From contig JAFSYI010000031.1 in assembly GCA_017450065.1 (NCBI GenBank), positions 1-64,000 on the forward strand: a DNA stretch of 64,000 nt, written 5' to 3'. Made by a program: the position numbers and the translations under genes. The DNA is from Lachnospiraceae bacterium. Lineage in GTDB: Bacteria; Bacillota; Clostridia; Lachnospirales; Lachnospiraceae. The notes below the pieces were generated by a model. The model had not been told where the DNA came from. It worked only from the letters and a program-made list of their open reading frames with translations, and did no database searches. This document shows, in pieces, positions 1,093-7,458 of the stretch. Numbering within the stretch: the first letter of the stretch is position 1; every line of letters begins with the position of its first letter.

Positions 1093-2100
1093 TTACATTG
1101 TACCATACATGTCATGATTTACCTCAGCAGTATAGTAATGGCTAATGGTATTCGGTGCGTTATAGAGTGCTGTTGTCAAATAGGCTTTGATATTGGATAC
1201 CTTTGTTGTGTTATTCTTCATGCAGCCGATGACATATTCCAAATGCGTTGAATTGAGCTTCAGGAACTTGCTCTTCACCAAGTTATACGGATAGTCTTCC
1301 CCTGCAATACGAATAGTCTTTCTCGGAACACAGACCACATCGCAGATCAGCTGATATAGCTCGTCATACATTTCTCTGTCAGACCATTTCTTGTTGCTCA
1401 TCATGATGTCATAATCAATGTTTTCACGAATAAGCTCCATGTATGCAGTGGTTTCATCCATCTGATCCATCCTCGTAACACGGATAGGCGTATCCATACG
1501 CTCGCCGGATAGACTGATATGATTAGTCTCACTAGAATCTGTATTGTTAAAATCATTATTATTCGGGTCTGATTTCTGTACCACCTCCGGTATAGAATCC
1601 TGACAGGTACCGGTACTACAATCTGACCGGTCTTCCTCGTATACCGGTTCAATATTTATACCGGTCTGATTTTCAGACTGGTCATCTTCCACCGGTTCAT
1701 TTTCCTGACCCGTACAATTTTTAGACCGGTCTAATGCTTCTTCTCCCCCGGATACAAAGTTTTTAACATAGATAATATTGGCAAGTCCGTTCCTCTGCTC
1801 AATATCAACTAAACCGATAGCCTGTAACTCCTTCAACAGTCCCACAGCTGTCATCTTGCTGCAGTTTAGATCTTCCATAATGCTCTTCAAGGAATACTTG
1901 ATATAAACCCTGTTCTCTTCATCAAACCATCCGCTTCTGACTGATAATGACATACGGTCCAGCATCAACCCATACAGAAGCTTGGAATTATTTGAAATGT
2001 CTTTAAATCTGCTATCTGTTATCAAAGCCTTCGGCAGGCGGTAGAACGTAAACTGCTCTGCCTCCTGCCCATAATAAAACTCCAGCTTTAACCTCTCCAT
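1093..2100 (-). CDS. repA: RepA_N-type replication initiator protein
   Basis: The N-terminal part (about residues 5-110) carries the RepA_N signature YYGQEAEQFTFYRLPKALI followed by a winged-helix-like region with LLYGLMLDRMSLS. An acidic low-complexity linker follows, then a C-terminal domain of about 120 residues of the kind found in Firmicutes plasmid and ICE initiators. Such proteins bind iterons that lie inside their own gene. The start at 2100 overlaps the parB stop by one base (TAATG), with an AAAGGGG box upstream; a longer frame from 2127 has no better site. Rep with ParA and ParB suggests that the excised element can replicate and partition. Confidence 0.88.
   Translation of the reverse strand: MERLKLEFYYGQEAEQFTFYRLPKALITDSRFKDISNNSKLLYGLMLDRMSLSVRSGWFDEENRVYIKYSLKSIMEDLNCSKMTAVGLLKELQAIGLVDIEQRNGLANIIYVKNFVSGGEEALDRSKNCTGQENEPVEDDQSENQTGINIEPVYEEDRSDCSTGTCQDSIPEVVQKSDPNNNDFNNTDSSETNHISLSGERMDTPIRVTRMDQMDETTAYMELIRENIDYDIMMSNKKWSDREMYDELYQLICDVVCVPRKTIRIAGEDYPYNLVKSKFLKLNSTHLEYVIGCMKNNTTKVSNIKAYLTTALYNAPNTISHYYTAEVNHDMYGTM
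1609..1731. repeat. Iteron-like ACCGGT boxes on a 17-base pitch inside repA (candidate replication origin)
   Basis: Boxes start at 1609, 1626, 1643, 1660 and 1677 (ACTGGT), then after a 14-base step at 1691, 1708 (ACCCGT) and 1725. Six are perfect ACCGGT and two have one mismatch. Because 17 is not a multiple of three, the boxes fall in rotating frames and encode TG, P, R or Q in turn. That indicates selection on DNA rather than a protein repeat. RepA_N replicons are known to have their origin within the rep gene between the N- and C-terminal domains, exactly this location. Confidence 0.75.
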
Positions 2101-3005
2101 TAACGCGGTTCCCCTTTCTCCTTCCATTCATCAAGGAGCTTTACGATTAGTTCCTCAATATCCTCATTGCTCATGTCCGAGGTAAAATAGTTATCCAGCT
2201 TCTTCTGGTTAAATACTACCTTACGCGGTTTCGGCTTCTTCTCTGAAAGAAAATCTCTCAAAAACTCTGCATTCAGATAGCCTTTACGCGATGCCTCCTT
2301 AATTCGTGCACTCTGCTCCTGGCTAATAGAGACATTCATTTCCGAAATCACATCATAAACGACTTCCTGCTGTTCCTTTGAGATAAAAGAAAGATCTACA
2401 CCCTGACGGAGCCCCATTCTCTTATCATCAACCATCGCCAAAAGTCTTTCATCAAGACTGGCAATACAGATCAAACGCTGTATGGTTTTTCTGCTCTCTC
2501 CGGCTTCTTCGCTCATTTGCTCCAAGGAAATACCATTTGCTTTCCCCTGATGTTTCATCGCCTCGTACTTCATCTGATAAGCCTTTGCCCTTTCGCTAAT
2601 CAGAATATCCTCACGCTGGATATTGGCATCCACCATAATTACGACAGCTTCATCATTATCACAGTCGCGTACGATTACCGGCATGGTATCTTTTCCTGCA
2701 CGTTCAGAAGCATGTTTTCTGCGGTGTCCGGATATCAACTCATAGCCACCTTCTGCTCTTGGTCTTGCAATCGCAGGAACCAAGACCCCATATTCCTTGA
2801 TGCTTTCAACCAATTCGTCCATGCTGTCATCATCCACCACACGAAAAGGATGATTTTCAAAAGAATGCAGTTCTGAAAGTGGTATTTCGACAATTTGTCC
2901 ATCCGCTTTTGCTTCCTCATTTACTGAACCGCTGTTTTCTTCCGCAGAAAACATATCATCATAACTGGAAAGCTTGATTCTGTTAGATAATCCCTTACTG
3001 CTCAT
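2100..3005 (-). CDS. parB: ParB-family partition protein
   Basis: The 301-residue protein has the ParB N-terminal domain with SELHSFENHPFRVVDDDSMD (about residues 42-61), the GGYELISGHRRKHASERAG motif (about 85-104) and a central helix-turn-helix region (LEQMSEEAGESRKTIQRL). ParB/Spo0J proteins bind parS sites and work with ParA to segregate plasmids. The ATG at 3005 follows GGAGGAGG by about 9 bases and lies within the end of parA, giving an 11-base overlap typical of a coupled parAB operon. No clear parS palindrome was found in the visible part of the element. Confidence 0.92.
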   Translation of the reverse strand: MSSKGLSNRIKLSSYDDMFSAEENSGSVNEEAKADGQIVEIPLSELHSFENHPFRVVDDDSMDELVESIKEYGVLVPAIARPRAEGGYELISGHRRKHASERAGKDTMPVIVRDCDNDEAVVIMVDANIQREDILISERAKAYQMKYEAMKHQGKANGISLEQMSEEAGESRKTIQRLICIASLDERLLAMVDDKRMGLRQGVDLSFISKEQQEVVYDVISEMNVSISQEQSARIKEASRKGYLNAEFLRDFLSEKKPKPRKVVFNQKKLDNYFTSDMSNEDIEELIVKLLDEWKEKGEPR

Positions 3006-3780
3006 TAGCTAAAACCTCCTCCACAATCTTTTCATAGGCTGATGCCACTTTGCCTTTACCGTCATATTTATAGATACTGACTCCCTCTGCGGATGCCTCT
3101 GCTGCTCTGACCGAAAGCGGAATCACATCCTTAAAAATATGAATACTGCTACCATAATGCTCATAGAGTACTTCCGTAATCTCCTTGGCATATACGGTTC
3201 TGTAATCCACCATGGTAATCAAAATACCCATAATATGAAGTTTCGGGTTCATCTTACGCTTCACACGGCTTATGGTTTTAAGAAGCTGTTCCAAGCCTTT
3301 AATAGGTAGATAGGCTGCCTGCACCGGAATAATCACCTCATCTGCTGCCACAAGAGCATTTAATGTGAGCTGACCAAGATTCGGAGAACAATCTACAAGA
3401 ATATAATCATAATCATCTCTGACTGATTCGATATATTCCCTAAGCGTAGTCTCCGAACTCATAATTCCCACAAGAGATGTCTCCACACCGGAAAGCTCTA
3501 TATTGGCAGGCATTAAATCAATCCCTTCCTCATGATGTAAAATACCGGCTTTCAGCTCATAGTCATCTTCGTTTAAAACCCAGTCCATAACGTTTGCAAG
3601 AGTTACTTCCAGCTTGTCCGGCTCAGGATATCCAAGAGCCTCTGTAAGAGACCCCTGTGGATCGTTGTCGATCACAAGCACTCTCTTTCCCTTATTTGCC
3701 AAGCCAATGCCAAGATTTACCACAGATGTACTCTTGGCTACTCCTCCCTTTTGATTTGCACAGATAATTACTTTACACAT
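2995..3780 (-). CDS. parA: ParA-family partition ATPase
   Basis: This is a 261-residue deviant Walker ATPase. The N-terminus MCKVIICANQKGGVAKST holds the KGGVAKST deviant Walker A motif (about residues 11-18), followed by NDPQGSLTEALG (Walker A' region) and DYILVDCSPNLGQLT (Walker B region, about 126-140). ParA forms ATP-dependent dimers on the nucleoid and moves ParB-parS complexes. It overlaps the MobC-like gene by 8 bases and parB by 11 bases, so all three are probably translated from one mRNA. Its length and motifs are complete. Confidence 0.95.
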   Translation of the reverse strand: MCKVIICANQKGGVAKSTSVVNLGIGLANKGKRVLVIDNDPQGSLTEALGYPEPDKLEVTLANVMDWVLNEDDYELKAGILHHEEGIDLMPANIELSGVETSLVGIMSSETTLREYIESVRDDYDYILVDCSPNLGQLTLNALVAADEVIIPVQAAYLPIKGLEQLLKTISRVKRKMNPKLHIMGILITMVDYRTVYAKEITEVLYEHYGSSIHIFKDVIPLSVRAAEASAEGVSIYKYDGKGKVASAYEKIVEEVLANEQ

Positions 3781-4162
3781 CGCGATACATTCTCCTTTCC
3801 AAAAACTTATCTTTTCTCTTTGTTTTTCTGTTCTTTTCCTCGTTCACCTTGAATGCTTCAAGTATTTCCAACATCGTATTGATTGGCGTAAACAAATCTT
3901 CGTCTATCTCTGATGCCACATCCAGTCTTTCTAATTCTGCAAGGATTCCGCTAAGTTCCTTGCGGAAGTTTACGAGCATCATAGGATTGCCTTTTGCCGT
4001 GACTTTGTTATGGAGCACGGCATCCAGTACATAATCCTGCTTTGTCTGATAGCCCAAAAGCCTCCAACGCTTATCCAGTTCTTCTCTTTCAGCCGGAGAA
4101 CAACGGTAAGCTATCGTCTCACTCCTGAGTCTTCCTTTCGGATCAAGATTCTTCGCTGACAT
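3773..4162 (-). CDS. MobC-like relaxosome accessory protein
   Basis: The product of about 129 residues begins MSAKNLDPKGRLRSETIAYR and continues with CSPAEREELDKRWRLLGYQ, resembling the ribbon-helix-helix N-terminus of plasmid mobilisation (MobC-type) proteins. A helical C-terminus rich in Leu, Glu and Lys follows. Such proteins assist the relaxase at oriT. The ATG at 4162 has AAGGAGGG 5 bases upstream; the longer frame from 4207 lies within the integrase gene. It overlaps int by 20 bases and parA by 8 bases. The relaxase itself would have to lie to the left of the window, so the role is inferred from family resemblance. Confidence 0.65.
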   Translation of the reverse strand: MSAKNLDPKGRLRSETIAYRCSPAEREELDKRWRLLGYQTKQDYVLDAVLHNKVTAKGNPMMLVNFRKELSGILAELERLDVASEIDEDLFTPINTMLEILEAFKVNEEKNRKTKRKDKFLERRMYRDV

Positions 4163-5240
4163 CAAATCCCTCCTTCCACTCTTCATCAAGTGCTTCTGCC
4201 ATATCATCCTGAATGGACGGCATCATGTGTGCATATCGGTAAGTAATCTCCGTACTCTCATGACCTACTCTGTTACCGATAGCCACAGCTGAAAATCCCA
4301 TGTCTATAAGAAGAGATACATGACTGTGACGAAGATCGTGAATACGAATACGCTTTACTCCGCTCGCCTTTACGCCTCTGTCCATTTCATGATGCAGATA
4401 AGACTTTGAGATAACAAAGATTCTGTCTGTAGGTTCAATTCCGTAAATGCTATCGAGAAAGTCTTTCACTTCCTGTGCCACGTTCTCCGGCATGGAAATG
4501 ACACGCACACTCTTTGGAGTTTTCGGTTTTGTAATAACATCCCTGCCACTGATCCTCTGGTAAGATTTTGTAATGGATAACTTATTCCTATCGAAATCAA
4601 AATCGGCAGGAGTGAGCGCCATCAGTTCTCCCATGCGGATTCCGCACCAATACAAAAGTTCAAAGGCTACATATGAATATGTCTTATTGGCAACCTCAGG
4701 GATAAATCTCATATACTCTTCCTTTGTCCAGAAAAGCATCTCGTCCGCATGGTGCTGTCCCAAAGGTCCTGCTATAACAGCCGGGTTCTTTGGTAACTCG
4801 TAATATCTCACTGCATGATTAAATATTGCGGAAAGCTCCGCCTGCATTTTCCTAAGGTATGTTCCCTTGAAGCTCTCTCCGTCTTTAGATTCCAGCTTTC
4901 GCATTTCGTTTTGCCAAGCCATCACATCTCGCGGTGTAATGTCACGCATTACCAAATCCTTAAAATACGGAAGGATCTTCTTTTCGATTACATACTCCTT
5001 GGATTTCCATGTGTTTTCTCTAACCTTCGGCTTTACATCGTCTGTATAACGCTTGTAGAAATCTTCAAATGTCATATCCAGACTGTTTGCTTTTTCCAGT
5101 TTGAAATGACGTTCCCAATCCTGGGCTTCCTTTTTGGTGGCAAATCCTCTTTTTAACTTTCGCTGCCGTTTACCCGTCCAGTCGATGTAGTAAAAAGATG
5201 AATACCAATTATTCGCTTTGCTGTTCTTGTACGCCGGCAT
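4143..5240 (-). CDS. Tyrosine recombinase (element integrase)
   Basis: The product is about 365 residues. The N-terminal arm-binding region carries WYSSFYYIDWTGKRQRKLKR, typical of phage and ICE integrases, followed by a SAM-like core-binding domain (about 55-150). The catalytic domain shows the Arg box CGIRMGELMAL, the H-x-x-R box HDLRHSHVSLL, and GHESTEITYRYAHMMP with the nucleophilic Tyr. The start at 5240 has AAGGAGG 7 bases upstream; the alternative ATG at 5267 lies inside the HTH gene. It transcribes away from guaA, whose 3' end is the probable integration site. Confidence 0.93.
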   Translation of the reverse strand: MPAYKNSKANNWYSSFYYIDWTGKRQRKLKRGFATKKEAQDWERHFKLEKANSLDMTFEDFYKRYTDDVKPKVRENTWKSKEYVIEKKILPYFKDLVMRDITPRDVMAWQNEMRKLESKDGESFKGTYLRKMQAELSAIFNHAVRYYELPKNPAVIAGPLGQHHADEMLFWTKEEYMRFIPEVANKTYSYVAFELLYWCGIRMGELMALTPADFDFDRNKLSITKSYQRISGRDVITKPKTPKSVRVISMPENVAQEVKDFLDSIYGIEPTDRIFVISKSYLHHEMDRGVKASGVKRIRIHDLRHSHVSLLIDMGFSAVAIGNRVGHESTEITYRYAHMMPSIQDDMAEALDEEWKEGFDVSEES

Positions 5241-5442
5241 CTTCGTCCTCCTTTTCAAAAGAATCAACTCCGTAGAATCTTTCTTCGAAATACTTTCTGC
5301 TTACCCTTCCGGGAATGACCATGTAACCTTTATCAGAAAGCTCTTTATTCAAGTCACGTACAATGGCATAGGACTTGGATTCAGAAACACTCAATACCTG
5401 GCATATCTCTTTTACTGAGATAAACGTTCTGCATTCAAACAT
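5209..5442 (-). CDS. Small helix-turn-helix protein, probable excisionase or directionality factor
   Basis: This is a 77-residue basic/acidic protein. Its N-terminal half FISVKEICQVLSVSESKSYA reads as a MerR/excisionase-type helix-turn-helix, followed by GYMVIPGRVSRKYFEERFYG, the wing and recognition element seen in excisionase-like DNA-binding proteins. It has a strong AGGAGG site 7-8 bases before the ATG and overlaps the integrase start by 32 bases. Position upstream of and overlapping int is the common xis-int arrangement, so a role in excision or in int regulation is likely but inferred. Confidence 0.75.
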   Translation of the reverse strand: MFECRTFISVKEICQVLSVSESKSYAIVRDLNKELSDKGYMVIPGRVSRKYFEERFYGVDSFEKEDEDAGVQEQQSE

Positions 5443-5480: not shown

Positions 5481-5647
5481 TTACATTTGGGTGGCTGAAA
5501 TCCCCATTACTAAATGAGAGCAAAAAAAGTTTGAAATTTTAAAAGTCGTGGAAATAATAAGATGAAAAACAGATTTGGACTTTATTCTGGGATAATTCCG
5601 ATACTACATTTTTTTAGAAAAAAGGTATCAAAATCGTATCACGACAC

Positions 5648-5692
5648 AAAAAAGGCCCGAAATCATGTTGTCTTAACATGATTTCAAGCCTT
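5648..5692 (-). terminator. Rho-independent terminator downstream of guaA
   Basis: On the minus strand an 11-base-pair perfect stem (5659-5669 with 5675-5685, loop of 5) is extended by a further AAGGC/GCCTT pairing outside a 2-base mismatch. It is followed by six T. It lies 45 bases after the guaA stop and should insulate guaA from the element's operon, which runs in the same direction. Confidence 0.8.
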
Positions 5693-5765
5693 GTAAATAC
5701 TGGATTTGTTTGCTTAACCTCTAAGCCACAGCGGGTCTATTCCATCTCTATCGTCCCGGGGGGCT
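5693..5765. other. Junction between the guaA 3' end and the mobile element (candidate attachment region)
   Basis: The guaA stop codon is at 5737-5739 and the element's first gene begins near 5442. The 3' end of guaA is a known site where tyrosine integrases insert islands, restoring the gene's last codons. A direct repeat of part of 5700-5760 would be expected at the far left end of the element. That end is not in this window, so the core cannot be defined. Confidence 0.4.
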
Positions 5766-7458
5766 TGCTCGTAAGATCATAAAATACCCTGTTTACGCCG
5801 CGGACTTCATTGATGATGCGGCTCATCACGGTCTGGAGTACCTCGAAAGGGATATCCGCCGCTTCGGCTGTCATGAAATCGATCGTTTTTACTGCCCGAA
5901 GGGCAATCGCATAGTCATAAGTACGTTCATCACCCATAACACCTACACTTCTCATATTGGTAAGCGCGGCAAAATACTGATCCGGCATCCAAGGCGGATT
6001 ATCATCCTCAGTCCGGCAACGAATATGCTCATCTTCACAAACTCCCGGAATTGAATATTCAACTATTACAGGATGCTGTCTCCAGGCATCTGCCGCTTTG
6101 GCTATCTCTTCCCTGTATATCGCATCGGCGTCCTGAACAATACGTACCTTCTCCGCAGTTACCTCACCGACTATCCGTACCCCAAGTCCCGGACCCGGAA
6201 AAGGCTGTCTGTATACAAGTTCCCTCGGAAGCCCAAGTTCAAGACCCGCCTTCCTGACTTCATCTTTAAACAGATCCCTGAGAGGTTCTATTATTTCTTT
6301 AAAATCAACATAATCCGGAAGACCTCCTACATTATGATGGGATTTGATCACCGCAGACTCTCCTCCCAGACCACTCTCTACCACATCCGGATATATGGTT
6401 CCCTGTGCAAGGAAATCAACTGCCCCTATCTTCTTAGCCTCTTCTTCAAATATCCTTATAAACTCTTCTCCGATTATCTTACGTTTCTTCTCCGGTTCAC
6501 TCACACCGGCAAGCCTGCCATAATACCGTTCCTGAGCATTGACCCTTACGAAATTAAGATCAAAACTGCTGTTTTCCCCGAATACAGCCTCAACCTCATC
6601 ACCCTCATTCTTCCTAAGCAAACCGTGATCCACGAAAACACAGGTAAGCTGATTACCCACAGCTTTTGCTAGTAAGGCTGCAAGAACCGAAGAGTCCACT
6701 CCTCCGGAGAGTGCCAGCAACACCTTTCCTTCTCCTATCTTCTCCCTTATTGACTTTACCGCATTCTCCACAAATGCATCCATACGCCATGAGCCGCTGC
6801 ATCCGCAGATTTTCCTTACAAAATTATACAATATCTTTGTCCCTTCAAGAGTATGAAGAACCTCCGGATGGAACTGTATTGCATACAGCTTCCTGTCTTC
6901 ATCCTCAGCTGCAGCCACAGGACAGTTCTCGGTATATGCCACGGTCTCAAATCCGGGAGCAAGCTTTGAAATATAATCAAAATGGCTCATCCAAACCTGT
7001 GTCACCAAAGTGTCCTTTTCATCAAAGCTTTTATTGGCTCTTTCCCGGTCATTGAGAACGTCTGAGTAGCTTTCCCTCGGATCTATTGATTCTCCTATGT
7101 TCTCAAACAGTCTTGAATTTCTGTTTACAAGAGTTCTGGTTTTACCATACTCCCTTGCTTTTGCTCTCTTAACCTCTCCCCCAAGAACCAGGCTCATAAG
7201 CTGTGCTCCGTAACACAGGCCAAGTACTGGTACTCCTGCTTCAAACAGTTCCCTGCCCGCAGACGGTGCCCCGTCTTCATAAACACTGTTCGGTCCACCG
7301 GTAAGGATTATTCCTTTAGGATTCATTTTCATGATCTTTTCCAACGGTGTCTTATACGAATATATCTCACAGTAAACATTGCATTCCCTGACACGTCTTG
7401 CCACCAGCTGGTTATACTGTCCTCCGAAATCGATGACAACAATCTTTTCCTCATTCAT
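5737..7458 (-). CDS. guaA: GMP synthase (glutamine-hydrolysing)
   Basis: GuaA converts XMP to GMP with glutamine and ATP. The glutaminase domain has the nucleophile in GLCYGAQL (Cys82) and the partner residues in FHPEV (His197, Glu199). The synthetase domain has the PP-loop [10 protein letters not shown] (about 249-257) and the C-terminal dimerisation region ending in [10 protein letters not shown]. At 573 residues it is about 50-60 longer than the usual 510-525. The extra length lies in two places: about residues 123-152, before the WMSH motif, and about 457-492, before [17 protein letters not shown]. All catalytic motifs are intact, so it should be functional. The start ATG at 7458 has only a weak GGATGGTG site. 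Confidence 0.96.

Follow-up and report, generated by a model that had tools for sequence, protein, structure and literature searches.

In staphylococcal theta plasmids of the pSK41/pSK1 type, a winged-helix initiator of the RepA_N family has Rep boxes between its domains and a linker encoded by the origin; in the available text of a review of staphylococcal plasmids, pSK41 Rep is reported to bind four Rep boxes situated within its own gene, to be able to do without the linker that the origin encodes, and to bind primase through its C-terminal domain (PMC5703833). Integrated counterparts are ICEs of the Tn5252/Tn1549/TnGBS superfamilies, in which a RepA_N initiator is accompanied by ParA. According to the portion of the source at hand, such ICEs with RepA_N and ParA have been described in streptococci, replication as circles has been proposed for the superfamilies and found for TnGBS, and streptococcal elements are known to integrate at the 3' end of guaA (PMC4701971). 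Rep_3 iteron plasmids, whose initiator family is unrelated, likewise have iterons beside AT-rich repeats, the iterons of pSK639 lying upstream of rep (available text of PMC5703833).

The repA gene described here was found in a Lachnospiraceae bacterium, in a stretch of 64,000 nucleotides which as a whole is referred to as the window. Unlike the pSK41/pSK1 type, its product has DUF6017 as C-terminal domain and a wing which is one residue shorter and without net positive charge, its boxes are ACCGGT-like palindromes at a pitch of 17 bp, and the element carrying it appears to be integrated in a chromosome. The boxes are probably (at a probability of about 0.86) iterons for the RepA encoded by their own gene, and would form, along with the AT-rich 15-mers next to them, the putative oriV of the mobile element. 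An in-gene oriV made of RepA iterons, which is what the boxes most likely represent, is of a kind already known; what is new is the switch from a 23- to a 17-bp pitch accompanied by a shorter wing devoid of positive charge, together with the 15-mers. No description of a 23- or 17-bp pitch was found in the literature searched, and the primary papers on the pSK41 origin and structure, outside that search, may give the pitch; the available text of PMC8508797 and PMC8129170 contains nothing on boxes inside repA.

The repA gene and the element around it

Table 1. Features of the repA end of the window
Feature	Position	Strand	Basis or remark
Putative iteron array, ten ACCGGT-type boxes	1586..1730	.	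box search; grid kept in clade
Three tandem AT-rich 15-mers, AATAATAATGATTTT, AACAATACAGATTCT, AGTGAGACTAATCAT	1519..1563	minus	proposed DNA unwinding element
repA	1093..2127	minus	RepA_N winged-helix domain aa 27-101, linker aa 126-221, DUF6017 C-terminal domain aa 224-341
ParB-like partition protein	2100..3005	minus	Pfam ParB_N E 3.6e-19
ParA-like partition ATPase	2995..3780	minus	Pfam AAA_31 E 4e-56
NikA-like mobilisation accessory protein	3773..4207	minus	Pfam PF21983 E 8e-7
Tyrosine integrase of element	4143..5267	minus	Pfam Phage_integrase E 3e-18, Arm-DNA-bind_4 E 7e-15

The 344 residues of RepA comprise a RepA_N domain (PF06970, E 1e-25, 89.9 bits against a curated cut-off of 30) and, at the C-terminus, DUF6017 (PF19481, E 3e-43). 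The N-terminal domain resembles solved RepA N-terminal domains both in fold (Foldseek; 4pt7, E 1.1e-8, TM 0.69 by target) and in sequence (phmmer, E 3.4e-18), and one of the solved entries matched is titled as a Rep-DNA complex. In the AlphaFold2 model the linker is predicted to be disordered (pLDDT below 50); the model of DUF6017 has a mean pLDDT of 81.6. A DnaD-like C-terminal domain, as reported for pSK41 Rep, was sought in the DUF6017 model, the best PDB match having an E-value of 1.4. No paper on DUF6017 was found in the literature searched, and the viral contigs searched gave no relative.

Upstream of repA and on the same strand are parB, which overlaps repA by 28 bp, parA, the NikA-like gene and the tyrosine integrase, followed by a gene at 7458..5737 which, from its translation, I take to be guaA-like; a single small reading frame separates the latter from the adjoining integrase (5267..4143). 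This order looks like one end of an integrated element. The contig, which begins at window base 1, has no relaxase or secretion genes, and a search of the genome for an attachment-site partner of the stretch 5560-5800, at the guaA-side end, gave none that was convincing. The same genome encodes two further RepA_N genes, one with a 23-bp signal (L003, G000:C40) and one interrupted (L002, G000:C3).

Boxes under constraint at the DNA level

The box array that the earlier note had described is real, and it lies in the linker of the initiator gene, between the RepA_N and DUF6017 domains. Six of the eight boxes first noticed read exactly ACCGGT (1609, 1626, 1643, 1660, 1691 and 1725), and the other two have one mismatch each (ACTGGT at 1677, ACCCGT at 1708). 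From 1609 upward they follow each other at steps of 17, 17, 17, 17, 14, 17 and 17, in the coding-strand frames 1, 0, 2, 1, 0, 2, 1, 0, so that they are translated as DRS/TG/EPV/DQS/TG/EPV/DRS/TG; pitch, single shorter step and rotation are all as had been claimed. Two more boxes fall on the same grid, namely ACAGGT at 1603 and TCCGGT at 1586 (steps of 6 and 17), the ten thus being spaced, from 1725 downward, by 17, 17, 14, 17, 17, 17, 17, 6 and 17. Since dinucleotide shuffles give an expectation of only about 6.7 ACCGGT per 64 kb, the presence of six within 122 bp is not due to chance. None of 300 synonymous-codon shuffles matched the lag-17 self-similarity of the window linker, in which the z-score of lag 25 is slightly above that of lag 17 (3.2 against 2.9).

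Variation among close relatives was measured on eight of the ten sequences with at least 83% identity, namely the window copy and seven relatives (L038 and L039 have linkers repeating those of L036 and L037). Averaged over pairs, the eight boxes differ by 0.069 and the spacers by 0.291, a fourfold reduction, and as the comb of boxes is shifted off register the lower value climbs to 0.09 at one base and to about 0.3 at eight. The boxes vary little at all three codon positions (0.074, 0.047 and 0.087); at third positions, the N- and C-terminal domains reach 0.322 and 0.333 against 0.087 in the boxes. Because the low variation extends to all codon positions, the constraint is on the DNA, as the earlier note had proposed, and selection on the protein alone would not account for it. 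The alignment of related repA genes that it had called for likewise gave a box period kept in the clade defined below, with drifting spacers and linker protein.

A repeat selected at the protein level, the DNA period being a by-product, is nevertheless conceivable: since three steps of 17 bp amount to 17 codons, the protein is itself repetitive, in 17-residue units of the form D[RQ]S-TG-EPV selected for a function of the linker. This explanation is very improbable in view of the low box variation at synonymous positions and of a period signal which is measured against synonymous shuffles. Moreover, pitches of 17 and 23 bp both pass through all frames, the linker is predicted to be disordered, and its pSK41 counterpart is the dispensable one (PMC5703833, as excerpted).

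Pitch, wing and box letters among RepA_N relatives

For the comparison 104 loci were gathered, 40 of which were hand-picked, among the matches listed, from match rows without a locus; the removal of five with too short a reading frame and of eight with identical linkers left 91, the window included. They were grouped by protein rather than by pitch into a clade of 22 RepA_N genes, with at least 59% identity to the window RepA, a set of 42 other RepA_N genes which do not exceed 51%, and 27 genes judged to be without a full RepA_N domain, among them the interrupted copy L002. A tree of the N-terminal domain (short search, 113 columns) groups the 22 together as a single clade (SH-aLRT 100), which branches from within the others.

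Periods were tested in each gene against 400 synonymous-codon shuffles (p<0.05). Lag 17 is significant in 19 of the 22 clade members, the remaining three missing the threshold, in 1 of the 42 other RepA_N genes and in none of the 27. Lag 23 is significant in 41/42 other RepA_N genes, where it occupies the same linker as the 17-bp array of the clade, in 5/27 of those without a full domain, and in 12/22 clade genes, in which it is read as 17+6 in the box grid, though possibly a leftover of the old pitch. The expectation that related repA genes keep the spacing is therefore borne out within the clade and not beyond it, since distant relatives have their arrays in the same place at 23 bp. Lag 15 is significant in 0/22, 10/42 and 21/27, respectively. 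As a separate observation, DUF6017 proteins without a full RepA_N domain have 15-bp linker repeats (L062, L063, L075-L079, L081-L084, L086, L088 and similar ones), lag 30 being found in 20/27; their 15-bp signal may in part be a protein repeat, 15 being a multiple of three.

Between the boxes of 21 clade genes, chosen by similarity to ACCGGT or ACCAGT in related genes and hence giving counts which are not independent, the steps are 17 (97 cases), 6 (16), 34 (12), 14 (8), 31 (5), 57 (4), 29 (3) and 23 (3). Almost every one of them can be obtained by adding up 17, 14 and 6, which is not clear for a few rarer steps (such as 96, 131, 43, 18, 16 and 8). The 14-bp step occurs in 8 of the 21 genes (window included; L041 partly scanned) and is thus not peculiar to the window copy.

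A farther set, without clade members and re-fetches, comprised 21 mostly distant RepA_N genes of which enough sequence was available (L130-L132 and L143 being near-identical). In 13 of them lag 23 came out on top, and in three (L110, L125, L144) it had a lower rank; it was absent from five (L107, L126, L134, L137, L138), which include the rep of a L. paracasei plasmid. Among plasmids, the rep of S. saprophyticus pSSAP1 has lag 23 in first rank and four 23-bp units by eye, a Planococcus plasmid rep has a 23-bp array, and a Monoglobus pectinilyticus plasmid (L109, 517 kb, circular record) encodes, with parB adjoining, a RepA_N initiator which resembles the window RepA over 96% of its length and has a 23-bp array. 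L105, L106 and L110 were checked for circularity, and no terminal direct repeat was seen. A RepA_N gene with a longer wing, L099, has a 30-bp array (55/68 matches) with lag 23 in second rank (p 0.010), possibly a third pitch class.

The two pitch classes also differ in the wing. By pattern match, all 22 clade wings have 10 residues and a net charge of -1 or 0. A match was obtained in 38 of the 42 other RepA_N genes, always with 11 residues; that of L003 is misplaced, and among the remaining 37 the charge is +2 or +3 in 33, another positive value in three, and 0 in L017. The four without a match (L024, L087, L097, L099) have basic wings in the alignment. As a single evolutionary event is involved, the association of wing with pitch has the status of a correlation.

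With regard to the DNA, 17 would be 23 minus two codons, and 14 would be 17 minus one; the pitch of an in-frame array could shift only by whole codons unless indels compensate, which the 14-bp step would fit as well. Most arrays, in either class, have an A-rich centre between inverted arms (weak in L066 and L070), and at the 17-bp pitch one ACCGGT-like palindrome would be common to adjacent units. I give even odds to a joint remodelling of initiator and origin in one reading frame, whereby the pitch went once from 23 to 17 bp (minus 6 bp, or two codons, per unit) in a clade whose RepA wing lost one residue and its positive charge, with neighbours sharing palindromic arms and with the 15-mers as an unwinding element of specific sequence, preserved in Staphylococcus as well as in Lachnospiraceae.

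The letters of the boxes differ widely between loci. Which protein they follow was addressed in 31 genes with strong 23-bp arrays (at least 41/69 matches) and near-duplicates removed, 6-mer similarities being compared by partial Mantel tests. Box similarity follows the recognition helix and wing of RepA (r 0.46, p 0.0005, given the C-terminal domain) rather than the C-terminal domain (r 0.09, p 0.16, given the recognition region); for the remainder of the N-terminal domain r is 0.18 (p 0.04) once the recognition region is given. Immediately beyond the array the DNA behaves in the reverse way, with r -0.01 for the recognition region given the C-terminal domain and r 0.31 (p 0.0005) for the C-terminal domain given the recognition region. 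Part of the correlation between boxes and N-terminal domain could stem from joint recombination of physical neighbours.

Could the array instead be the centromere (parS) of the neighbouring ParAB system? The overlap of parB with repA, as well as the correlation of boxes with ParB HTH similarity taken alone (r 0.315, p 0.0025), would speak for it. In the 22 of the 31 loci with enough of parB, however, ParB adds little once the RepA recognition region is given (r 0.12, p 0.12), while RepA remains strong given ParB (r 0.44, p 0.0005), so that a centromere is a very unlikely identity for the array, and RepA rather than ParB is what the boxes follow.

AT-rich 15-mers and a putative origin

A second DNA-level element, to judge by codon usage, is formed by the AT-rich 15-mers after the array, which in the window are at 564, 579 and 594 of the coding strand. 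They were studied in 67 genes, namely the 64 RepA_N genes with L108, L109 and L153, the region of interest being the 16-codon stretch richest in Asn, Thr, Asp and Ser. Its mean AT content is 76%, against 60% for the genes, and it is situated at the array end or after it in 16 of the 17 genes shown (elsewhere in L003). Thr is encoded by ACT in 106/122 codons inside and 263/1083 elsewhere (p 1e-42), although ACA is equally AT-rich; AAT for Asn (84% against 68%) and AGT for Ser (47% against 21%) are enriched too, and GAT for Asp is not. With a matrix trained on the same genes, tandem 15-mers like AATAATACTGATTTT are found in 67/67, with 15-bp spacing in 86 neighbouring pairs, and 141 sites score at least 8, against 51.6 (sd 4.4) in 20 synonymous shuffles; all 174 training sites are in the coding frame, and the protein may contribute to the signal. 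The pSSAP1 rep carries such 15-mers as well. In AT-rich-region repeats of other plasmids, Rep binds one strand and changes to the repeats abolish origin activity, according to the available text of PMC4081077. A DnaA-trio pattern was looked for by eye in the 15-mers and did not fit.

Array and 15-mers together resemble a theta origin, with iterons plus an unwinding region. The oriV reading of the earlier note gains support from the clade comparison, from the RepA_N identity of the initiator and from pSK41-type origins being located within rep. The sequence shows an array which is conserved as DNA and whose letters follow the recognition region of RepA, and beside it the AT-rich repeats; from these I infer the following course. 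The N-terminal winged helix of RepA would bind the array, whose encoded disordered linker would tether DUF6017; this domain might recruit host replication proteins, a guess given that its best solved-structure match has an E-value of 1.4. The 15-mers would then melt, theta replication of the excised circle would start, and ParA and ParB would segregate the replicated circle.

Alternatively, the boxes might bind RepA for regulation only (autorepression, incompatibility, copy pairing), with replication starting elsewhere. Tetramers of the RepA N-terminal domain reportedly bridge DNA (Schumacher 2014). The iterons of Rep_3 plasmids serve pairing control, yet the same available text places the pSK41 origin at the same position in rep (PMC5703833); together with the 15-mers, under DNA-level constraint and adjoining the array, this makes a purely regulatory role improbable. 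The preferred reading remains that of an origin within repA.

As for DnaA, exact matches to TTATCCACA, which I take to be the consensus of its box, number 14 in the 91 rep genes, against an expectation of 2.1 and at most 6 in any of 100 synonymous shuffles; when one mismatch is allowed, the count is not clearly raised (43 against 36.7, sd 4.8). Several of the 14 are in close relatives, and the window repA has no DnaA box even with one mismatch, so DnaA boxes were not retained in the main claim. Exact boxes TGTGGATAA are seen beyond the array in L034, L035, L040, L041, L067, L097, L103 and L104, about 376-418 bases before the end of rep, others of the 14 being elsewhere in the gene.

These genes would represent a natural initiator-origin series in which each protein has its binding sites encoded within its own gene; the box letters vary widely at a pitch that stays at 23 bp, and in one clade both pitch and wing have changed. 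The co-evolution of initiator and origin under double coding thereby becomes directly testable, a simple signature becomes available by which origins can be sought in the RepA_N plasmids and integrated elements of Firmicutes, and a conserved unwinding sequence beside the sites is pointed to.

Finally, restriction-modification genes are present beside rep in clade loci (L111, L114 and, in the window, 27-812), and consist of a FokI/AlwI-like endonuclease with a C5 methylase, N6 methylases and hsdS. In L114, rep is near a class II tRNA synthetase gene, presumably lysS, instead of guaA.
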